From: Burkholderiales bacterium
Lineage (GTDB): Bacteria; Pseudomonadota; Gammaproteobacteria; Burkholderiales; Casimicrobiaceae
Assembly: GCA_905339295.1 (NCBI GenBank)
Contig: CAJPFI010000032.1
Coordinates: 1 to 64,000, forward strand
DNA: 64,000 nt
Direction: 5' to 3'
Positions 39,410 to 50,329 of this stretch are shown in pieces (within the stretch, counting starts at the first letter, position 1; every line of letters starts with the position of its first letter). The position numbers and the translations under genes were made by a program. Below the pieces are notes generated by a model that saw only the letters and a list, made by a program, of their open reading frames with translations, searched no databases and was not told where the DNA came from.

Positions 39410-40498
39410 TCACGTGTTCTGGACCGTGATCGTCGGGAACTTCGCCGAGAAGTCCTGCGCCTTCTGCGCCACGGCGACCGCGACCTTGCGCGCGATCGAC
39501 AGGTACTCGCGCGCGACCGGGCCGTCCGGATCGGCGACGACGGTCGGGCGGCCCGAGTCCGCCTGCTCGCGGATGCGGATGTCCAGCGGGAGGCTGCCCA
39601 GGAACGGCACGCCGTAGTCGCGGCACATGCGCTCGCCGCCGCCCTCGCCGAAGATGTGCTCGGCATGGCCGCACTTCGAGCACACGTGGATCGCCATGTT
39701 CTCGACGATGCCCACGATCGGCACGCCGACCTTCTCGAACATCTTGAGGCCCTTGCGCGCGTCGAGCAGGGCGATGTCCTGCGGCGTGGTGACGATCACC
39801 GCGCCGGTGACCGGCACCTTCTGCGACAGCGTGAGTTGGATGTCGCCGGTGCCCGGCGGCATGTCGACGATCAGGTAGTCGACCTCGCGCCAGTTGGTGT
39901 CCTTCAGCAGCTGTTCGAGCGCCTGCGTGACCATCGGGCCGCGCCACACCATCGGCGTGTCGACGTCGATCAGGAAGCCGATCGACATCGCCTGCAGCCC
40001 GTACGCCTCGAGCGGCTCGAGCGTCTTGCCGTCCTTCGACTCCGGCCGGCCGCTGATGCCCAGCATCGTCGGCTGCGACGGTCCGTAGATGTCGGCGTCG
40101 AGGACGCCCACGGTCGCGCCTTCGGCCGCGAGTGCGAGCGCCAGGTTGACCGCCGTCGTCGACTTGCCCACGCCGCCCTTGCCGCTCGCGACCGCGACGA
40201 TGTTCTTGACTCCCGGCACGAGCTTGACGCCGCGCTGGACGGCGTGCGACGTGATCTTCTGGTCGACGGTCACGGTCACGCGGCCGACGCCCGGGAGGGC
40301 GGCGAGCGCGTCGGCAACGAGCCTGCGGATCGTGTCGTGCTGGCTCTTCGCCGGATAGCCCAGCATGAGGTCGACCGCGACGTCGCCGCCGGACACCGCG
40401 GCCTTCCTCACCGCCTTGCCCGACACGAAGTCGCGCCCGGTGTTGGGATCGAGGAGGCCCTTGAGGCAAGCCTGCACGTCGGCGTCGGCGATCGGCAT
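39410..40498 (-). CDS. apbC: Mrp/ApbC iron-sulfur cluster carrier ATPase
   Basis: This 362-aa P-loop ATPase delivers Fe-S clusters to target proteins. It has an N-terminal MIP18/DUF59 domain (1-85), the deviant Walker [11 protein letters not shown] (105-114), [13 protein letters not shown], and CSKCGH with the CxxC that binds the bridging cluster. The ATG at 40498 (MPIADADVQ) is preferred over one 14 codons upstream. It is divergent from metG, and a TAGAAT -10 candidate on its strand lies at 40553-40558. Confidence 0.93.
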
Positions 40499-40552
40499 CG
40501 GAAGTTCGGGTCCGCTTGCGCGGCGCCCGGAAGACGGCATTCGGGGGCCCTC

Positions 40553-40609
40553 ATTCTATCCGATCCCCGGCGTCGGCCTCCGGGGTCCGCGCGGGCGCTT
40601 TGCTAGAAT
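40553..40609. promoter_or_regulatory. Back-to-back -10 boxes for mrp (reverse) and metG (forward)
   Basis: TAGAAT occurs on the reverse strand at 40553-40558 and on the forward strand at 40604-40609, placing starts about 48 and 28 bp before the mrp and metG start codons. Neither has a convincing -35, so the assignment rests on the hexamers and position only. Confidence 0.45.
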
Positions 40610-40643
40610 CGTTCGCTTGCCCCTGCCTGTCGCAAGGTTTTCG

Positions 40644-42725
40644 ATGCCCGCCCCCCGCCGGACCCTGTTCGTCACCACGGCGTTGCCGTACGCGAACGGC
40701 CCGTTCCACATCGGCCACATCATGGAGTACATCCAGGCCGACATCTGGGTGCGCTTCCAGCGCATGCAGGGGCACGAGGTCCACTTCGTGTGCGCCGACG
40801 ACGCGCACGGCGCGCCGATCATGCTGAAGGCGGAGGCGGAGGGCGTCACACCCCGCGAGCTGGTGGCTCGCGTCGCCGCGACGCGGCCGAAGCACCTCGA
40901 CGGCTTCCACATCGGCTTCGACCACTGGCACTCGACCGACTCGCCCGAGAACGTCGAGCTGTCGCGGGACGTCTACCGCAGGCTCAGGGCGCGCGGCCTC
41001 GTCTACGGCAAGCCGGTCGAGCAGTTCTACGACCCGGTCAAGGCGATGTTCCTGCCGGACCGCTACATCAAGGGCACCTGCCCGAACTGCGGCGCGAAGG
41101 ACCAGTACGGCGACGCCTGCGAGAACTGCAGCTCGACCTACCAGCCGACCGACCTCATCGACCCGTACTCGACGCTCACCGGCGCGCGGCCGGAGCTGCG
41201 CACCTCGGAGCACCTGTTCTTCCGGCTGTCGGCACCCGAGGTGGTCGCGTTCCTGCGGCGCTGGACCGCGGAGCCGTCGCCCGGCCGCGCACTGCAGCCC
41301 GAAGTGCTGAACAAGGTTCGCGAGTGGCTGGGCGGCGACGAGGTCGCGAGCAAGCTCACCGACTGGGACATCTCGCGCGACGCCCCCTACTTCGGCATCC
41401 CGATCCCCGACGCACCCGGTAAGTACTTCTACGTCTGGCTGGACGCGCCGATCGGCTACCTCGCGAGTCTCAAGGCCCATCTCGCCGCACGCCGGACCGA
41501 CTTCGCGGCGTTCCTTCAGGATCCGCACGTCGAGCAGTACCACTTCATCGGCAAGGACATCATCTACCACCACCTGCTGTTCTGGCCCGCGATGCTGAAG
41601 TTCGCCGGCGCGCCGTACAAGACGCCGGACAACGTCTTCGTGCACGGCTTCATCACCTTCCTCAACGAAAAGATGTCGAAGTCGCGCGGCACCGGCATCA
41701 GCCCGGACGTGTATCTCGACCTCGGGATGAACCCGGAGTGGCTGCGCTACTACCTCGCGGCCAAGCTCAACGACCGCGTCGAGGACCTCGACTTCAATCC
41801 GGACGATTTCGTCGCCCGCGTCAACAGCGACCTCGTCGGCAAGTACGTCAACATCGCGAGCCGGGCGGCGACGTTCGTCGCAAGGCATTTCGGCGGCGAG
41901 CTGTCGACGCGCGTGCCGGAGGCCGGGCGCGTCGCCGACCGCGCGGGCTCGACGAGCATTGCGTGGGGTGCCAGGGACTCGATCGCCGAGGCCTACGCGA
42001 GCCGCGAGTTCGGCCGGGCGATGCGCGAGATCATGCGCATCGCCGACCGGATCAACGAGCGATTCGACGAGGCCAAGCCGTGGGAGCTCGCAAAGGATCC
42101 CGCGAGTCGCGAGCGGCTGCACGACGTCTGCTCGGACGCGATCAACGCGTTCCGGGCGCTCACCTACTATCTCGCGCCGGTGCTCCCCGCGACCGCGGGG
42201 AAGGTCGCGAAGCTGCTCGGCCTGCGGCTTCCGCTGCGCTGGAGCGACGTCGAGCAGCTGTCGGACCGCATCCAACCCTACGAGCACCTGATGACCCGCA
42301 TCGACCCGAAGCAGATGGACGTGCTGATCGCGCCGCCGGCACCGGCCGGTCCCGCCACGACCGCCGCCGCTGCGGCCGCGCCGGCGGCGCCGGACGCCAC
42401 GATCTCGATCGACGATTTCACGAAGGTCGAGTTGCGCATCGCGCGCATCGTCGCCGCGGAACACGTCGAGGGCGCCGACAAGCTCCTCAAGCTGACGCTC
42501 GACGTCGGCGAAGGCCGGCACCGCACGGTGTTCGCCGGCATCAAGTCGGCCTACGATCCCGCGACGCTGGTCGGCCGGCTGACGCCGATGGTCGCGAACC
42601 TCGCTCCGCGCAAGATGAAGTTCGGCCTGTCCGAAGGCATGGTCCTCGCCGCATCGGGCGACGGCCCCGGCATCTTCCTGCTCGCGCCCGACGCCGGCGC
42701 GCAGCCCGGAATGCGCGTGAAGTGA
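40644..42725 (+). CDS. metG: Methionyl-tRNA synthetase
   Basis: This 693-aa class I synthetase charges tRNA-Met. HIGH is at 22-25 ([14 protein letters not shown]), the zinc knuckle is [22 protein letters not shown] is in [11 protein letters not shown], and the anticodon-binding helical domain follows. The C-terminal OB-fold tRNA-binding (Trbp111-like) domain (about 585-693, [29 protein letters not shown]) is joined by an Ala/Pro linker. The E. coli-like long form is complete. The start at 40644 puts the HIGH motif at the usual distance. Confidence 0.96.
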
Positions 42726-42857: not shown

Positions 42858-44861
42858 ATGGCGATGCCGCCCGACTCGACGACGCTGGTGCTCGCCGCGA
42901 TCTCGGCGTGGCTGCTGATCGGCGCGCTGGGCATCGCGGCGCTGCGCAAGCTGCGCTTCGTGAGCCGGGTGCTGTTTCCCGCGGGAGCGGCGGTCGGCGT
43001 CGGACTCGCAGTCGCGGCGTTCGTCGCGATCGGCGCGCCGCCGCAGGTGGCCGTGCTGCCGCTCGGCCTGCCCGACCTGCCGTTCCACGTTCGCGTCGAT
43101 GCGCTCTCCGCGTACTTCCTCGTGCTGCTCGGCGCCGCGGGCGCCGCGATCTCGTGGTTCTCCGCCGGCTACTTCCGGTCGAGCGAAGGCACCCCGCCGG
43201 GCCTGATCTGCTTCCAGTACCACGTGTTCCTCGCCGCGATGGCGTTCGTGCTGATCGCCGACGACGCCTACGCGTTCATGGTGGCGTGGGAGGCGATGGC
43301 GCTCGCGTCGTACTTCCTCGTCACGACCGAGCACCGCATCCCGGAGATCCGCCGCGCCGGCTTCCTCTACCTGCTGATCGCGCACGTCGGCGCGATCGCC
43401 ATCCTGCTGTGCTTCGGCGTGCTGCAGGGCGGCGGCGGCGACTACACGTTCGGCGCGATGCGCGCGGTGACGCTGCCCGCCGCCTGGGCGTCGGTCGCGT
43501 TCTTCCTCGCGCTCTTCGGCTTCGGCGCGAAGGCGGGCCTGCTGCCGCTGCACGTCTGGCTGCCCGAGGCGCATCCGGCCGCGCCGTCGCCGGTCTCCGC
43601 GCTGATGAGCGGCGTGATGCTCAAGACGGCGATCTACGGCCTGCTTCGCGTCGCGTTCGACCTCCTGCACCTGCAGCTCTGGTGGTGGGGCGCGATCGCG
43701 CTGTCGCTCGGGCTCGTCACCGCGCTGTTCGGCGTGATCTTCGCCGCCGCGCAGACCGACATGAAGCGCCTGCTCGCCTACTCGTCGATCGAGAACATCG
43801 GCATCATCGTCGCCGGCATCGGTCTCGCAATCCTGTACAAGGCGTACGACAAGCCGCTGCTCGCCGCGATCGCGCTGACGGCGGTGCTCTATCACGCGCT
43901 CAACCACGCGTTCTTCAAGAGCCTGCTGTTCCTCGCGACCGGCTCGGTGCTGCACGCGACGAAGGAGCGGAGCCTCGGCAGGCTCGGCGGCCTCATCCAC
44001 CGGATGCCGTGGGTCGCGTGGCTCGCGCTCGTCGGCACGCTGGCAATCGCGGGACTGCCGCCGCTGAACGGATTCGTCTCGGAGTGGCTGCTGCTGCAGG
44101 CGTTCCTGTTCACGCCGACGCTGCCGCAGTCGTTCGTGAACATGCTGGTGTCGATCGCGGCGGCGGCGCTCGTGCTGGCGGCGGCGCTCGCCGCCTACGT
44201 GATGGTCAAGTTCTACGGCGTCGTGTTCCTCGGCCGGCCGCGCGAGCCCTCCCTCGCGTACGCGAAGGACGCCGGCAAGTACGAGCGCGCCGCGCTTGCG
44301 GCGCTCGCCCTGGGCTGCGTGCTGCTCGGGGTGTTTCCGGGCGTGGTCATCGGCGCGCTCGACCCGGTGAACCTGCTGCTCGTCGGACACTCCACCGGCG
44401 AGGCCGCCGGCGACTGGCTGCTGCTCGCGCCGTTCGGCGAGGACCGCTCGAGCTACAGCGCCGTGATCGTGCTGGTCGTGATCGTCGCGGTCGTGCTCGT
44501 GACGATGCAGGTCGTCCACCGCTACTACCACGGCCGCGTGCGCCACGCGGACCCGTGGGACTGCGGCCATCCGCTGCAGACGCCGCGAATGCAGGACACC
44601 GCGGAAGGGTTCGGCCAGCCGGTGCGGCAGGTGTTCGAGCCGTTCTTCCGCATCGAGCGCCACCTGCCCTCGCCGTTCGACGACAAGCCGCGCTACTGGC
44701 TCAAGCCGAGCGATCCGTGGTGGCACTGGATCTACCTGCCGATCGCGCGCGCGGCGGAGTTCGCCGCCCGCTTCGTGGGGCTGATCCAGCAGGGCCGCAT
44801 CTCCGTGTACCTGACCTACAGCTTCGTCACGCTCCTCGCGCTGCTGTTCTTCGTCCGATGA
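42858..44861 (+). CDS. hyfB: Hydrogenase-4-like subunit B (NuoL-type antiporter-like subunit) of an Ehr complex
   Basis: This 667-aa polytopic protein is related to HyfB and to the NuoL/M/N proton channels of complex I. Conserved pieces are MVAWEAMALASYFLV, FGAKAGLLPLHVWLPEAHPAAPSPVSALMSG, MKRLLAYSSIENIGII and ALNHAFFKSLLFLATGSV. These carry the charged Glu and Lys residues of the ion path. A hydrophilic segment with PWDCGHPLQTPRMQDTAEGF is typical of HyfB C termini. It is first of six co-directional genes with 4-bp overlaps or short gaps. Because the catalytic subunit lacks its metal site, the name describes ancestry and not hydrogenase function. Confidence 0.85.
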   Translation: MAMPPDSTTLVLAAISAWLLIGALGIAALRKLRFVSRVLFPAGAAVGVGLAVAAFVAIGAPPQVAVLPLGLPDLPFHVRVDALSAYFLVLLGAAGAAISWFSAGYFRSSEGTPPGLICFQYHVFLAAMAFVLIADDAYAFMVAWEAMALASYFLVTTEHRIPEIRRAGFLYLLIAHVGAIAILLCFGVLQGGGGDYTFGAMRAVTLPAAWASVAFFLALFGFGAKAGLLPLHVWLPEAHPAAPSPVSALMSGVMLKTAIYGLLRVAFDLLHLQLWWWGAIALSLGLVTALFGVIFAAAQTDMKRLLAYSSIENIGIIVAGIGLAILYKAYDKPLLAAIALTAVLYHALNHAFFKSLLFLATGSVLHATKERSLGRLGGLIHRMPWVAWLALVGTLAIAGLPPLNGFVSEWLLLQAFLFTPTLPQSFVNMLVSIAAAALVLAAALAAYVMVKFYGVVFLGRPREPSLAYAKDAGKYERAALAALALGCVLLGVFPGVVIGALDPVNLLLVGHSTGEAAGDWLLLAPFGEDRSSYSAVIVLVVIVAVVLVTMQVVHRYYHGRVRHADPWDCGHPLQTPRMQDTAEGFGQPVRQVFEPFFRIERHLPSPFDDKPRYWLKPSDPWWHWIYLPIARAAEFAARFVGLIQQGRISVYLTYSFVTLLALLFFVR

Positions 44862-45808
44862 CCGCCGCGGCGCTCCTGTCCCAGTTCGTGCAGCTCGCGC
44901 TCGCCCTGGCGCTGGCGCCGCTGCTCGTCGGCTGGGTCAACCAGTGCCGGGCCTGGCTTTCCAACCGCAGCGCGCCGCCGCTCACGCTGCCCTACCGCAC
45001 GATCCGGAAGCTGTTCATGAAGGACGCGGTCGTCGCGAGCAACGCGTCGCCGCTGTTCAGGCTCACGCCCTACGTGGTGTTCGGCGCGATGTGCTGCGCG
45101 GCGGCGATCGTGCCGTCGCTCGCCACCGACCTGCCGTTCGCGCTCGCCGCCGACGCGATCGCGCTGGTCGGACTGTTCGCGCTGGCCCGCGTGTTCATCG
45201 CGCTCGCCGCGATGGACATCGGCACGGCGTTCGGGACGCTCGGCGCGCGCCGCGAGATGTTCGTCGGGTTCCTCGCCGAGCCGGCGCTCCTGATGGTGCT
45301 GTTCACCGCGTCGCTGATCTCGGGGTCGACGTCGCTGCCGTCGATCGTCGACACGCTCGCGCACCGCGAGCTCGCGATCTACCCGAGCCTCGCGCTCGCC
45401 GGCGTCGCGTTCACGATGGTGTCGCTCGCCGAGAATGCCCGCATCCCGGTCGACAACCCGGCCACCCACCTCGAGCTCACGATGATCCACGAGGCGATGC
45501 TGCTCGAGTACTCGGCGCGCCACCTCGCGCTGATCGAGTGGGCGTCCGCGCTCAAGCTGTTCAACTACTCGTGCATCGGGCTCGCGCTGTTCTTCCCGTT
45601 CGGCATCGCGCAGGGCAGCGACGACTGGCTCGCGATCGCGCTGGCGGTCCCGGTGCTCGTCGCCAAGCTCGCCGCGGGCGGGTTCGCGCTCGCGGTGATC
45701 GAGACCGCGTCGGCCAAGATGCGCATCTTCCGCGCGCCCGAGTTCCTCGGCACGGCGTTCCTGCTCGCCGTGCTGGCGATGCTCGTCCGGCTGCTGCTGG
45801 GAAGCTAG
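44858..45808 (+). CDS. hyfC: Hydrogenase-4-like subunit C (NuoH-type)
   Basis: This 316-aa membrane protein is homologous to HyfC/HycD and NuoH, the subunit that couples the hydrophilic arm to the membrane arm. It contains PYRTIRKLFMKDAV, MDIGTAFGTLGARREMFVGF and ENARIPVDNPATHLELTMIHEAMLLEYSARH, the conserved loop lining the quinone-like cavity and its acidic funnel. It overlaps hyfB by 4 bp (ATGA). Confidence 0.9.
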   Translation: MTAAALLSQFVQLALALALAPLLVGWVNQCRAWLSNRSAPPLTLPYRTIRKLFMKDAVVASNASPLFRLTPYVVFGAMCCAAAIVPSLATDLPFALAADAIALVGLFALARVFIALAAMDIGTAFGTLGARREMFVGFLAEPALLMVLFTASLISGSTSLPSIVDTLAHRELAIYPSLALAGVAFTMVSLAENARIPVDNPATHLELTMIHEAMLLEYSARHLALIEWASALKLFNYSCIGLALFFPFGIAQGSDDWLAIALAVPVLVAKLAAGGFALAVIETASAKMRIFRAPEFLGTAFLLAVLAMLVRLLLGS

Positions 45809-45810
45809 CG

Positions 45811-46479
45811 ATGGCGACGCTCCCCCTGTACGCGCAGTTCATCAACCTCCTCGCGGCGCTGCTCCTGCTGCTGTCGTTCGCGATGCTCGCCCAGCGGCGC
45901 GTGCTGTCGCTGATCGACCTGTTCGCGGCCCAGGGCCTCGCGCTCGCCGCGTCGACCGCCATCGTCGCGTACGGAACCGGCCAGCACCACCTCTACTGGT
46001 CGGCGGGGCTCACGCTGATCCTCAAGGTCTTCCTGCTCCCGTGGATCCTCTACCGGCTGATCCGCAAGCTCGACGTCAAGTGGGACGTCGAGGGGCTGAT
46101 CAACGTGCCGACGACGATGCTGATCGGCATCGTGCTGGTCGTGTTCGCGTTCAACCTCGCAGCGCCGATCTCGCAGCTCGCGAGCACGGTGACGCGCGCG
46201 ACGCTCGGCATCGCGATGGCCTGCGTGATGCTGTCGTTTCTCATGATGATCACCCGACGCAAGGCGATTCCGCAGGTGATCGGTTTCCTGTCGATGGAGA
46301 ACGGGCTCTTCTTCGCGGCGACGAGCGCCACCTATGGCATGCCGATGGTGGTCGAGCTCGGCATCGCGCTCGACGTGCTGGTCGGCGTGCTGATCCTCGG
46401 CGTGTTCTTCTTCCAGATCCGGGAACAGTTCGACAGCCTCGACCTCCGGCACCTCGAGAAGCTCAAGGAGGGCGAATGA
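45811..46479 (+). CDS. hyfE: Hydrogenase-4-like subunit E
   Basis: This 222-aa membrane protein resembles HyfE, whose N-terminal part is NuoK-like. It has about seven helices; landmarks are DLFAAQGLALAASTAIVAY, VPTTMLIGIVLVVFAFNLAAP and IGFLSMENGLFFAATSATYGMP. It starts 2 bp after the hyfC stop. Its own stop overlaps the ATG of a 14-codon mini-ORF leading into hyfF. Confidence 0.88.
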   Translation: MATLPLYAQFINLLAALLLLLSFAMLAQRRVLSLIDLFAAQGLALAASTAIVAYGTGQHHLYWSAGLTLILKVFLLPWILYRLIRKLDVKWDVEGLINVPTTMLIGIVLVVFAFNLAAPISQLASTVTRATLGIAMACVMLSFLMMITRRKAIPQVIGFLSMENGLFFAATSATYGMPMVVELGIALDVLVGVLILGVFFFQIREQFDSLDLRHLEKLKEGE

Positions 46480-46520
46480 CGCGTCGTCACAGCGACGGCG
46501 CCGCGGGAGCCGCGGCGTGA
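46476..46520 (+). CDS. 14-codon mini-ORF bridging hyfE and hyfF
   Basis: An ATG overlapping the hyfE stop (ATGA, 46476-46479) opens a frame of 14 codons (MTRRHSDGAAGAAA). Its TGA overlaps the GTG start of hyfF (GTGA, 46517-46520). It may keep ribosomes moving across the 37-bp gap for coupled translation. Because hyfF also has its own GGGAG site (46505-46509), the mini-ORF could be incidental. Confidence 0.35.
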   Translation: MTRRHSDGAAGAAA

Positions 46521-47968
46521 TCGAGATCCTCGCCGTCCTGGGCATCCCCCTCGCGGGCAGCCTCGCGCTCGCGGCCGTGGGCCACCGCCCCGTGGCCGCC
46601 TCGGTCAACATCGCGGCGAGCCTCGGCACGTTCGTCGCGGCGGCGGTGCTGACGGCCCGCGTGGTCACCGACGGTCCGATGCTGGTGCTCGACAAGCTGT
46701 TCTTCGTCGACCCGTTCAACGTCTTCCTGGTCGCGCTGACCGCCTTCGTCGGGTTCACGACCTCGCTGTTCTCGCGCCCGTACATGCGGATCGAGCGCGA
46801 GCGGGGCAAGGTCGACGCCGCGCGCCTGCGGCTCTACCACGCGATGTACCAGCTGTTCAACTTCACGATGCTGCTCGCGCTGCTCACGAACAACATGGGC
46901 ATCCTGTGGGTGGCCCTCGAGGCCGCGACGCTGACTACCGTGCTGCTCGTGTCGCTCTACCGCACGCCGGCGAGCCTCGAGGCGGCGTGGAAGTACTTCA
47001 TCCTGTGCGGTGTCGGCATCGCGCAGGCGCTGTTCGGCACGATCCTGCTGTTCTTCGCCGCCGAGAAGCTGCTCGGAGCGGGCGGCGGCGCGCTGCTGTG
47101 GACCGAACTCGACGCCGTCAAGAGCCAGCTCGAGCCCACGGTGCTCTCGATCGCGTTCGTGTTCCTGCTGGTCGGCTACGGCACGAAGGTCGGGCTCGTG
47201 CCGCTGCACAACTGGCTGCCGGACGCGCACGCCGAGGGCCCGACGCCGGTCTCCGCCGTGCTCTCGGGCCTGCTGCTCAACGTCGCGCTCTACGCCGTCG
47301 TCCGCTGCAAGGTGCTGGTCGAGGGCGCGATCCCGACCGCCTTCGCCAAGAACCTGATGATGGGCTTCGGTCTCCTGTCGGTGGTCGTCGCCGCGTTCCT
47401 GCTGTCGCGCCAGAAGGACGTCAAGCGCCTGTTCGCGTACTCGTCGATCGAGCACATGGGCATCGTCACGTTCGCGTTCGGCATGGGCGGCGCGGTGGCC
47501 AACTTCGCCGGACTCCTGCACATGACGGTGCATTCGCTCACCAAGTCGGCCATCTTCTTCGCGGTCGGCCACGCCACGCAGAAGACCGGGACGCAGCTGA
47601 TGGACGGCATCCGCGGCCTGATCACGACCAGCCCGGTGATCGGCTGGGGCCTGATGATCGGCACGCTCGCGATCCTGGGCATGCCGCCGTTCGGCGTGTT
47701 CGCGAGCGAGTTCCTGATCCTGACGACGGCGATGCGCGAGCAGCCGTGGGCGACGCCGTTCCTGCTGGTCGCGCTCGGGGTCGCGTTCGCCGCGGTGTTC
47801 TCGAAGGTGCAGCCGATGGCCTTCGGCGAGCCGGTCGCGGAGCGACTGCCGCACCGCCCCGCGATGATCCCGGTGTTCGTGCACCTCGCGATCGTGCTGA
47901 TGCTGGGCCTGTGGATCCCGCCGTTCCTCGCCGACTGGTACCGGCAGGCGGCGCAACTGATCGGCTGA
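46517..47968 (+). CDS. hyfF: Hydrogenase-4-like subunit F (second NuoM/N-type subunit)
   Basis: This 483-aa antiporter-like subunit has about 14 helices with LLVGYGTKVGLVPLHNWLPDAHAEGPTPVSAVLSG, VKRLFAYSSIEHMGIV and MTVHSLTKSAIFFAVGHATQKTGT, the charged channel residues of the family. The start is GTG at 46517 with a GGGAG site 7 nt upstream. Together with HyfB it gives the complex two potential proton or sodium pumping modules. No hyfD is present. Confidence 0.9.
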   Translation: MIEILAVLGIPLAGSLALAAVGHRPVAASVNIAASLGTFVAAAVLTARVVTDGPMLVLDKLFFVDPFNVFLVALTAFVGFTTSLFSRPYMRIERERGKVDAARLRLYHAMYQLFNFTMLLALLTNNMGILWVALEAATLTTVLLVSLYRTPASLEAAWKYFILCGVGIAQALFGTILLFFAAEKLLGAGGGALLWTELDAVKSQLEPTVLSIAFVFLLVGYGTKVGLVPLHNWLPDAHAEGPTPVSAVLSGLLLNVALYAVVRCKVLVEGAIPTAFAKNLMMGFGLLSVVVAAFLLSRQKDVKRLFAYSSIEHMGIVTFAFGMGGAVANFAGLLHMTVHSLTKSAIFFAVGHATQKTGTQLMDGIRGLITTSPVIGWGLMIGTLAILGMPPFGVFASEFLILTTAMREQPWATPFLLVALGVAFAAVFSKVQPMAFGEPVAERLPHRPAMIPVFVHLAIVLMLGLWIPPFLADWYRQAAQLIG

Positions 47969-47973
47969 ACGCG

Positions 47974-49521
47974 ATGGACTTCTCGCGACTCGGGCTCTCC
48001 GCCGCATCCCTCGCCTCGGCGATTCCCGCGGTGCGCGTGCCGGTCGGATCGGGCCAGCTCGTGCCGGCCTGCAGGCTCGCGCGCGAGCAGGGGGCGCACC
48101 TGGTCGCGCTGTGGGCGAGCGACGAGCGCGACCGCGGCGGCGGCGCGATGGTGCGCGTGCTGCTGCAGGACGGCAGCGGGCTCGCGGTGCTCGAGGTCGC
48201 GCTGCCCGACCTGCCCGATGCGCGCTACGGCGACGTGTCCGCGATCTTCCCCGAGGCCGGACGGATGCAGCGCGCCGCGTTCGACCTTGTCGGCGCAGCC
48301 TGCGAGGCCGACGACCAGCGCCCCTGGGCGTGGATGGCGGGCTGGCCGATCGACCGCTTTCCGCTGCGGCGCGACTTCGAGGCGTCGCCCAAATGGGAGC
48401 CCGGCCAGGAGGACTACGAGTTCGTGAAGGTCGAAGGCGACGGGGTCCACGAGATCGCGGTCGGCCCGGTGCACGCCGGCATCATCGAGCCGGGGCACTT
48501 CCGCTTCCAGGTCGTCGGCGAAAAGGTGCTGCGCCTCGAGGAGCGCCTGTCGTACACGCACAAGGGCATCGAGAAGCGCTTCGAGGCGATGGCGATCGCC
48601 GATGGGCACCGTCTCGCGGGACGCGTGTCGGGCGACAGCACCGTCGCGTACGCGTGGGCGTACGCGCAGGCCCTCGAGGCGATCGCGGGCGCCGCCGTGC
48701 CGCCGCGCGCGCTCTGGCTGCGCGCGCTCGCGCTCGAGCGCGAGCGTATTGCCAACCACCTGGGCGACCTGGGCGCGCTCGGCAACGACGGCGGCTTCGC
48801 GTTCGGCCTGGCGCAGTTCTCGCGGCTGAAGGAGGACCTGCTGCGCACGAATCTCGCCGCCTTCGGCCATCGCTTCATGATGGACCACGTCGTGCCGGGC
48901 GGCGTCGCGCGCGACCTCGACCACAGTCACGTGGCGGCGATCGTCGAGGAGGCGCGGCGCATCGCGCGCGAGGCGAGCGCCTTGCGCGAGATCTACGACG
49001 AGCACGACGGGCTCCAGGACCGTTTCCGCGCCTGCGGCCGCGTGAGGCCCGAACTCGCCCTGCGCCTCGGTCTCACCGGCATGGCGGCGCGGGCGAGCGG
49101 GCAGGCGCGCGACCTGCGCTGCGACTTTCCATCGGCGCCGTACGACGCGCTCGAACCGCGCAGGATCGTCCACGACGGCGGCGACGTCGCGGCGCGCGTC
49201 GCGGTCCGCTTCGACGAGCTCGCGGAGTCGCTGCGGCTCGTGCGCACGATCGTCGAGCACGCCCCCGGCGGCGACGTTCGCGCGCCGGTCGGCGACATCC
49301 CGCCCTACCGGCTCGGACTCGGCTGCGTCGAGGGCTGGCGCGGGCCGGTGGCGGTCGCGCTCGAGGCCGGTCCCGGCGGCACGATCCGCCGCTGCCATCC
49401 GCACGACCCGTCGTGGTCGAACTGGCCGGTGATCGAGCACGCGGTGATCGGCAACATCGTTCCCGACTTCCCGCTGATCAACAAGTCGTTCAACCTCTCG
49501 TACAGCGGACAGGACCTCTAG
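47974..49521 (+). CDS. hyfG: Hydrogenase-4-like large subunit lacking the Ni-Fe cysteines (NuoCD/Ehr-type)
   Basis: This 515-aa protein joins a NuoC-like domain (1-115) to a NuoD/hydrogenase large-subunit domain (130-515). The RVCGIC motif of true hydrogenases reads RVSGDS here (217-222, Ser219 and Ser222). The C-terminal DPCxxC reads DPSWSN (478-483, Ser480 and Asn483). All four Ni-Fe ligands are therefore missing and H2 chemistry is ruled out. The remaining fold is well conserved (LEERLSYTHKGIEKRFE, RIANHLGDLGALGNDGGFAF), so the gene is not decayed. Such cysteine-free versions define the energy-converting hydrogenase-related (Ehr) complexes, whose electron donor and acceptor are unknown. 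Confidence 0.88.
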   Translation: MDFSRLGLSAASLASAIPAVRVPVGSGQLVPACRLAREQGAHLVALWASDERDRGGGAMVRVLLQDGSGLAVLEVALPDLPDARYGDVSAIFPEAGRMQRAAFDLVGAACEADDQRPWAWMAGWPIDRFPLRRDFEASPKWEPGQEDYEFVKVEGDGVHEIAVGPVHAGIIEPGHFRFQVVGEKVLRLEERLSYTHKGIEKRFEAMAIADGHRLAGRVSGDSTVAYAWAYAQALEAIAGAAVPPRALWLRALALERERIANHLGDLGALGNDGGFAFGLAQFSRLKEDLLRTNLAAFGHRFMMDHVVPGGVARDLDHSHVAAIVEEARRIAREASALREIYDEHDGLQDRFRACGRVRPELALRLGLTGMAARASGQARDLRCDFPSAPYDALEPRRIVHDGGDVAARVAVRFDELAESLRLVRTIVEHAPGGDVRAPVGDIPPYRLGLGCVEGWRGPVAVALEAGPGGTIRRCHPHDPSWSNWPVIEHAVIGNIVPDFPLINKSFNLSYSGQDL

Positions 49522-49529
49522 GGCCCGGC

Positions 49530-50045
49530 ATGCTGCGCATCCTCCGCCAGATCGCGAAGACCGGCATCGTCACCGAGCCCCGGCCGGCGCCCGCCGACGA
49601 GGCGGTCCTCGTCGCGCGCCTGCAGGAGCGCGTGCTGCGGACGCTGGGCCGCGCGCTCACGATCCGGCAGGTCGACGCCGGCTCGTGCAACGGGTGCGAG
49701 CTCGAGATCCACGCGCTCGGCAACCCGTACTACAACATCGAGGGGATGGGCATCAAGTTCGTCGCAAGCCCGCGCCACGCGGACCTGCTGCTCGTCACCG
49801 GCCCGGTGTCGAAGCACATGGCAATCGCGCTGAAGCGCACCTACGACGCCACGCCCGAGCCGAAGCTCGTCGTCGCGGTCGGCGATTGTGGCTGCCACGG
49901 CGGCATCTTCGGCGAGGGCTATGCGACGGTCGGTCGCGTGTCGAACGTGATCCCGGTCGACGTCGAGGTGCCCGGCTGCCCGCCGACGCCGACGGCGCTG
50001 CTGCGGGGCATCCTCGCGGCGATCTCGGGCAAGGCGCCGGACTGA
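49530..50045 (+). CDS. hyfI: Hydrogenase-4-like small subunit (NuoB-type, [4Fe-4S] protein)
   Basis: This 171-aa protein is homologous to HyfI/HycG and NuoB. The four ligands of the proximal [4Fe-4S] cluster are present: C53 and C56 (SCNGCE), C120 (VGDCGCHGG) and C150 (VPGCPP). The electron-transfer centre is therefore kept although the large subunit lost its metal site. It is the last gene of the operon; no ferredoxin-type HyfH or HyfA follows. The stop codon lies inside the first unit of the 22-bp repeat array. Confidence 0.9.
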   Translation: MLRILRQIAKTGIVTEPRPAPADEAVLVARLQERVLRTLGRALTIRQVDAGSCNGCELEIHALGNPYYNIEGMGIKFVASPRHADLLLVTGPVSKHMAIALKRTYDATPEPKLVVAVGDCGCHGGIFGEGYATVGRVSNVIPVDVEVPGCPPTPTALLRGILAAISGKAPD

Positions 50046-50141
50046 AGCCCGATTGGCGTCGGGCTGAAGCCCAAACGGCGTCAGGCTGAAGCCCAAACGG
50101 CGTCGGGCTGAAGCCCAAACGGCGTCGGGCTGAAGCCCGAC
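50042..50141 (+). repeat. Tandem palindromic array A, 22-bp period
   Basis: Five units beginning CTGAAGCCC start at 50042, 50064, 50086, 50108 and 50130, exactly 22 bp apart. Units 1-4 continue with a short linker and GCGTCGGG or GCGTCAGG. Adjoining units create the core GTCGGGCTGAAGCCC. A complete palindrome GTCGGGCTGAAGCCCGAC occurs at 50124-50141. The hyfI TGA (50043-50045) is part of unit 1. Confidence 0.9.
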
Positions 50142-50194: not shown

Positions 50195-50317
50195 GACGGG
50201 CTTCAGCCCGACGAGCCGCTGCCCCGTGGGTCGGGCTTCAGCCCGACAGGCCGCAACCCCGTGGGTCGCGCTTCAGCCCTACGAGCCGCAACCCCGTGGG
50301 TCGGGCTTCAGCCCGAC
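50195..50317 (-). repeat. Tandem palindromic array B, 35-bp period, inverted relative to array A
   Basis: Four units beginning CTTCAGCCC start at 50201, 50236, 50271 and 50306, exactly 35 bp apart. They share the linker GCCGCAACCCCGTGG, with minor changes in the first unit. The core GTCGGGCTTCAGCCCGAC is the reverse complement of that in array A. About 55 bp of non-repeated sequence separates the arrays. Together they fill the convergent gap between hyfI and the carbonic anhydrase gene and resemble REP/BIME elements. Confidence 0.9.
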
Positions 50318-50329
50318 GTCGTTCGCGTA

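Follow-up and report, generated by a model that had tools for sequence, protein, structure and literature searches.

A conserved, non-hydrogenase Ehr complex encoded in a Burkholderiales genome

The hyf operon and its membrane subunits

The window analysed here is a stretch of 64,000 nucleotides from a Burkholderiales bacterium of the family Casimicrobiaceae (GenBank assembly GCA_905339295.1, contig CAJPFI010000032.1, positions 1 to 64,000), whose genome comprised 4.03 Mb in 60 contigs. It contained six intact, close-packed genes, hyfB, hyfC, hyfE, hyfF, hyfG and hyfI (42858–50045, all on the + strand). An earlier prediction made from the sequence alone (the original prediction) had described these genes as intact and tightly coupled, and their product as an energy-converting hydrogenase-related (Ehr) complex whose large subunit lost all four Ni-Fe ligands while selection maintained a non-hydrogenase function. 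The layout of the genes agreed with this description: hyfB and hyfC overlap by 4 bases, the other gaps span 2 to 37 bases (counting hyfI from the ATG at 49530), and the products belong to the expected families. NCBIfam and Pfam supported the Hyf subunit names, weakly only for HyfE. The Ehr syntenic set (two antiporter-like subunits, a NuoH-like subunit, a HyfE-like subunit and the small subunit) was complete in the window, and the gene order BCEFGI was found in 78 of 81 loci having all six genes.

The first four genes encode the membrane part. hyfB (42858–44861) specifies an antiporter-like subunit with an ND3-like C-terminus (NCBIfam PRK06521, 901.8 bits), hyfC (44858–45808) a NuoH-like subunit with E-channel residues (PF00146), and hyfF (46517–47968) a second antiporter-like subunit (NCBIfam, 874 bits). 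The small membrane subunit encoded by hyfE (45811–46479) was conserved with the operon and had no Pfam match; it matched the NCBIfam model 'hydrogenase 4 membrane subunit' (PRK11492) at 101.8 bits, below the cut-off of 136. Neither a ferredoxin-type gene between hyfB and hyfI nor genes for the electron input subunits NuoE, NuoF, NuoG and NuoI within the operon were found.

HyfB, HyfC, HyfE and HyfF had been expected to keep their ion-path residues, and the E-channel, antiporter and ND3-loop residues that we checked were invariant or nearly so. HyfB kept E158, K238, H252, K316, H363, K367, E422 and C582 (the last numbered on the longer GTG reading) in 74/74 sequences; HyfC kept Phe125, Glu141, 192, 206, 212 and 217 in 79/79 and Glu133 in 78/79; and seven checked residues of HyfF were kept in 138/138. 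These counts, like those for HyfI below, contain the window twice (as WIN and L003). Roles of the equivalent residues of HycE, HycD and HycC have been described (PMC9474812). A reshaped HyfC loop (P197–S219, PVDNPATHLELTMIHEAMLLEYS, 45446–45514, + strand) with Ehr-specific Asn200, His204 and His211 differed from HycD and HyfC of Escherichia coli.

The large subunit HyfG and its former Ni-Fe site

HyfG (47974–49521) is a protein of 515 residues with a NuoC-like and a NuoD-like part. Its best match was HycE (phmmer E 1.3e-54, PDB 7z0s), and a Foldseek comparison of its AlphaFold model (mean predicted local distance difference test, pLDDT, 83.8) with known structures likewise ranked HycE first (TMq 0.87), followed by E. 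coli NuoCD (0.81). For residue counts, 154 loci gave 151 distinct HyfG, from which five rows were left out (L035, a hydrogenase; L034 and L036, another type; L043 and L044, fragments); with the window counted once (WIN being the same as L003), 146 distinct window-type HyfG remained.

In the alignment, the ligands Cys241, Cys244, Cys531 and Cys534 of HycE fell on HyfG Ser219, Ser222, Ser509 and Gly512. The first pair lies in Ser219-Gly-Asp221-Ser222 (48628–48639) and had been placed correctly in the original prediction. Ser480 and Asn483, named there as the second pair, sit in a look-alike, DPSWSN (residues 478–483, 49405–49422), about 30 residues ahead of the real motif, and align with non-ligand residues of HycE. 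The true second pair lies in Asn503-Lys504-...-Asn507-Leu-Ser509-Tyr-Ser-Gly512-Gln-Asp-Leu515 (49480–49518), and with the DPCxxC positions corrected in this way the loss of all four ligands stands. Across the 146 sequences, no cysteine occurred at the four positions in 137 and one in 9, with two or more in none. Position 219 was occupied by Ser (128), Ala (10) or Cys (8); position 222 by Ser (129), Thr (12), Met (4) or Ala (1); position 509 by Ser (123), Ala (10), Asn (8), Thr (3) or Cys (1), with one gap; and position 512 by Gly (144) or Ala (1), with one gap. A single Cys at position 222 was also seen in a few sequences outside this set.

Cysteines elsewhere in HyfG could in principle rebuild a metal site. 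The six others, at 33, 110, 354, 383, 451 and 474, were Cys in 49, 3, 26, 35, 5 and 101 of the 146 sequences, respectively, and because of this variation no conserved site is rebuilt. A separate complete NiFe large subunit was absent from the operon, and no PF00374 hydrogenase protein was found in the genome; the sole other PF00346 match was a 418-residue protein of the NuoD type on another contig (C21). HypD, the only Hyp protein searched for in this genome, was not found there. Window-type Ehr, counted at 46% identity or higher across a long stretch and leaving out two short fragments, was present in 33 of 61 genomes; HypD was missing from 21 of these 33, the window's own included, and present in 12. 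In a survey of neighbouring genes, five of five hydrogenase loci (L213–L217) had HycF-like and HycI-like matches, and no HycI match appeared in the Ehr-type loci, many of them with flanks of only 1.5 kb. HyfG stops where HycE has Arg537, the cleavage site, and has no C-terminal extension of the kind present in E. coli HycE and HyfG. NuoD ends at the same position, and some hydrogenases also have no such extension.

Purifying selection acts on hyfG. Pairwise ratios of nonsynonymous to synonymous substitution (dN/dS) between the window and two congeners were 0.26 and 0.28 for hyfG, 0.27 and 0.32 for hyfI, and 0.13 and 0.13 for hyfF. Together with the ligand loss and the absence of HypD and of a PF00374 protein, these values bear out the prediction of a selected non-hydrogenase function, and the window encodes an Ehr complex that is real, conserved and not a hydrogenase.

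The original prediction had further raised the possibility that the site now serves as a quinone- or ion-coupling module like that of complex I. The pocket residues did not support a quinone module. On our own alignment with NuoD, the position of complex I His38 (HycE Asp192) was Ile171 in 146/146 (codons of Ile171 and Glu172 at 48484–48489), that of complex I Tyr87 was Gly220 in 145/146, and the canopy Asp (HycE Asp529) was Asn507 in 145/145 ungapped rows; the quinone roles of His38 and Tyr87 are described in PMC5938582. The residues leave room for other modes of quinone binding. We also observed complex I-like NuoD paralogues in two loci (L041:7953-9251 and L038:8363-10639) that kept the quinone His and Tyr and had Asn at the canopy Asp position. 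HyfG itself kept His167, Glu172 (HycE Glu193), His262, Arg373, Glu415 and Arg456 each in 146/146, and Arg217 and Arg456 were retained in its former active-site motifs. Judged by their HycE equivalents (PMC9474812), all of the six but His167 belong to the proton path. Twenty-one residues set window-type Ehr apart: each was invariant there (98% or more) and none occurred in the three hydrogenases used for comparison. Among them were Asp221, Asp265, Asn271, Asp272, Asn503, Lys504 and Asn507. By analogy with HycE, these Ehr-specific residues probably share one pocket.

HyfI, related Ehr types and genomic neighbourhood

The small subunit gene hyfI (49530–50045; PF01058) encodes one [4Fe-4S] motif and a HycF-like N-terminus. 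The four cluster cysteines, expected to be kept, were so in every ungapped row: Cys53, Cys56, Cys120 and Cys150 (numbered from the ATG at 49530) were present in 147/147, 147/147, 147/147 and 146/146 ungapped rows, respectively.

Related Ehr types carry a ferredoxin domain on this subunit. In a second, distant cluster on a Variovorax plasmid (L065), HyfI included a fused, HycF-like ferredoxin domain that has eight cysteines; L115 and L125 had the same fusion close to their Ehr operons. A third Ehr type (L278–L280 and L268), with a cysteine-free HyfG that has a canopy Gly and ends in AGxDR, had HyfI fused to a two-cluster ferredoxin. A fused ferredoxin-like domain was likewise present in L106, L034 and L036. 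In L106 and L036 four of its cysteines remained, namely the final one of motif 1 and the initial three of motif 2, which together bind one of the clusters in two-cluster ferredoxins; the L106 domain had no Pfam Fer4 match and resembled HycF in BLAST (32% over 109 residues, E 2e-16). BLAST searches with five domains, which as a control found each other or HycF, gave no match in the 220 residues that precede the cluster motif in any of 149 window-type HyfI (146 distinct). The original prediction that no ferredoxin-type subunit is encoded here, and its remark that the redox partners of Ehr complexes are not known, were supported, and sharpened by the HyfI-fused ferredoxins of the related types.

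The N-terminus of window-type HyfI nevertheless resembled HycF. Scored with a position matrix built from 135 distinct window-type N-termini, six HycF/HyfH N-termini were reached by 0 to 5 of 20,000 shuffles, as was that of one fused relative, whereas E. coli HycG (3052 of 20,000) and HyfI (7680) did not match. The simplest reading of these sequences would be that a HycF-HycG fusion came first and that the window type then lost the ferredoxin and kept the N-terminal anchor.

One relative retained the ligands. In L106, a metagenome-assembled genome (MAG) labelled Betaproteobacteria, a window-type Ehr operon is immediately preceded by a second operon, whose HyfG had all four Cys (RICGVC, ELCYSC) and ended in TDR without an extension. 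In this protein the counterparts of Ile171, Glu172 and Lys504 are likewise Ile, Glu and Lys, the canopy residue is Glu, and the HyfC loop encoded in its operon is of the Ehr type. IQ-TREE grouped it with the Variovorax and window types (support 100) and outside these two joined (97–99), in the same place with or without the ligand columns. Support for the whole Ehr clade, including the L034/L036 type, was 96 and 99, and 90 after the third type was added. These runs left out L218, L219, L229 and near-duplicates; a first tree (FastTree) had the very long branches L218 and L219 inside its Ehr part (support 0.377) and joined the Variovorax type with the rest at 0.654, weaker than in IQ-TREE. Because the four-cysteine HyfG branches inside the Ehr clade, the Ni-Fe ligands would have been lost at least twice or regained once, judging from one locus of one MAG. 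HypD and HypC were not found in the L106 assembly, whose completeness was not established. When the four-cysteine protein was run as a query against 398 phylum and 399 order genomes, no further example occurred among the 40 HyfG whose ligand positions were read, a number that does not prove rarity.

In a sample of 299 genomes of the phylum, 57 had window-type Ehr (529 bits or more), the window's own included. This type was found on plasmids of Variovorax, Cupriavidus, Burkholderia, Rhizobium, Azospirillum, Bradyrhizobium and Methylocalor, on a Rhodococcus plasmid, and in contigs labelled Acidobacteria and Myxococcaceae. Two loci (L130:2792-17518 and L281:1397-16320) contained two complete divergent Ehr operons in tandem.

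Several neighbouring genes were considered as partners. Upstream of hyfB, at 39410–42725, lie an apbC-like gene (− strand) and metG (+ strand); metG was near Ehr in 12/86 other loci besides the window's kin and was not telling, and metG beside apbC is a common arrangement. A beta-type carbonic anhydrase with a twin-arginine-like N-terminus (PF00484, 50330–51037, − strand) is convergent with the operon; it followed the operon in one congener (L047) of 20 loci and in 0/86 further loci, and was rejected as a general partner. A spermidine-synthase-like gene (PF01564) occurred near 18/86 loci (e.g., L100:10020-10925) in several orientations, several within 100 bp. It lay within 10 kb in only 1/57 of the Ehr-holding phylum genomes (G304, about 6 kb; lists read by eye) and was likewise rejected; the link looks limited to some Betaproteobacteria. 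SulP-family transporters were near 8/86 loci; in two contigs labelled Thiobacillus (L104:597-2732, L116:282-2570) the transporter gene and the Ehr operon downstream of it are 46 bp apart. Directly 3' of hyfI we noted two tandem arrays, 50033–50138 (22-bp unit, 4.8 copies) and 50197–50318 (35-bp unit, 3.5 copies), that contain words like GGGCTGAAGCCC and GGGCTTCAGCCC.

Possible function and comparison with known systems

The reading that we favour, with not quite even confidence, is that the six subunits of window-type Ehr form a membrane-bound pump in which a redox reaction drives ion movement, and that this pump acts neither as a hydrogenase nor as a canonical quinone reductase. It draws on the loss of ligands under purifying selection, the missing quinone residues, the kept proton path, E-channel, antiporter and ND3-loop residues and HyfI cysteines, as well as on the HyfI-fused ferredoxin of the related types and the HycF-like N-terminus of the window type. 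A soluble donor of low potential, either ferredoxin or flavodoxin, would pass electrons straight to the HyfI cluster, since the window type does not have the ferredoxin domain that its relatives carry on HyfI. These electrons would then reduce a small, polar, non-quinone acceptor in the former Ni-Fe pocket, where a proton-coupled step would drive ion movement through HyfC, HyfE, HyfF and HyfB. The pump may also run in reverse.

Several points weigh against this reading. No donor, acceptor or activity is known for the complex. No neighbour gene recurred in most Ehr loci; the clustering of six-frame open reading frames (ORFs) was noisy, since antisense ORFs make false families; no common partner gene was seen across six annotated Ehr neighbourhoods (seven opened). 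The N-terminus shuffles preserve composition and not helix pattern. AlphaFold confidence was lowest at HyfG 147–197 and 511–515, which hold much of the pocket, and a model that contained only HyfG could give no view of the pocket geometry. Finally, Asn507 alone does not exclude quinone, because two complex I-like paralogues with the quinone His (G058, G016) also carry Asn at the canopy.

This last point, together with the fold near NuoCD and the kept E-channel, speaks for a quinone or quinone-like reductase in which the emptied Ni-Fe pocket took up quinone through other contact residues. We consider it unlikely given Ile and Gly at the His38 and Tyr87 positions and a HyfC loop unlike that of E. 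coli HycD and HyfC. An equally unlikely reading is that the complex is mainly an Mrp-like cation/proton antiporter, with HyfG and HyfI serving as a redox sensor or structural cap. The two antiporter-like subunits with conserved charges fit this, and a role in pH homeostasis has been suggested for the complex of Methylacidiphilum (PMC6688271), but the HyfI cysteines and former active-site motifs are near-invariant, beyond the need of a cap. A partnership with an unlinked oxidoreductase such as formate dehydrogenase, which would pass electrons to HyfI, seems more doubtful again: a complex of formate dehydrogenase and Ehr was proposed for Margulisbacteria and Saganbacteria (PMC6349859), but the enzyme was not among the recurring neighbours or in the six annotated neighbourhoods, and no genome-wide search was made. 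A hydrogenase with another metal site, for which the fold and proton path would speak, is close to refuted by the lack of ligands, replacement cysteines, HypD, a PF00374 protein and the C-terminal extension.

For the related types taken together we offer, more tentatively still, a reading in which Ehr is a grade and no single event, with at least two ligand losses in a clade with an ancestral fusion of HycF and the small subunit. The wire would have shortened from two extra clusters to one and then none, ending in a minimal complex whose single near-solvent cluster feeds a new non-quinone site. The L106 relative would then be a surviving intermediate, its cysteines binding something different from a Ni-Fe cofactor. 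Ehr complexes are common and have no assigned function in the available literature, and the residue evidence opposes hydrogenase and canonical quinone chemistry; combined with the likely site for a soluble donor on HyfI, it yields testable predictions. The fused-ferredoxin and four-cysteine relatives suggest how a complex I-type machine may change its chemistry and keep its pump, which bears on the origin of complex I.

Compared with respiratory complex I, the window complex shares the NuoCD fold, the ion path residues and the NuoD-like protein end, but lacks the quinone His/Tyr pair, and its operon has no NuoE, NuoF, NuoG or NuoI. Two group-4-derived complexes of Pyrococcus, the membrane-bound hydrogenase (MBH) and the membrane-bound sulfane sulfur reductase (MBS), were also among the PDB relatives of HyfG (6cfw, 6u8y); in the search alignment, MBH retains the CGxC cysteines. 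Formate hydrogenlyase and hydrogenase-4 of E. coli (HycE, HyfG) are the best match in sequence and fold and have the same HyfI Cys spacing and the E-channel. In contrast to them, the window has no Ni-Fe ligands, C-terminal extension, HycF or HycB genes in the operon, or HypD in the genome; the RxCGxC and DPCxxC ligands, HycE-like extension and HypD of a group 4 [NiFe] hydrogenase are thus missing. Ehr complexes (ehrABCDLS) are described as having a large subunit without RxCGxC and DPCxxC and membrane subunits like those of complex I and Hyf (PMC4378227, PMC10284858, PMC6688271), and are in print for Sulfobacillus, comammox Nitrospira, bacteria of the candidate phyla radiation (CPR), Margulisbacteria, ammonia-oxidising archaea, Methylacidiphilum and mycobacteria. 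The available parts of this literature state no function (PMC6349859, PMC10284858, PMC7304191, PMC4378227, PMC10432482, PMC6728331, PMC6688271, PMC12361115) and, the founding paper (Marreiros 2013) lying outside their scope, do not mention the ferredoxin-domain loss, the canopy Asn, the HyfC loop or a four-cysteine relative. The window shares with Ehr both the gene cluster and a large subunit from which the four ligand cysteines are missing, and its operon is a further member of Ehr and no new kind of complex.

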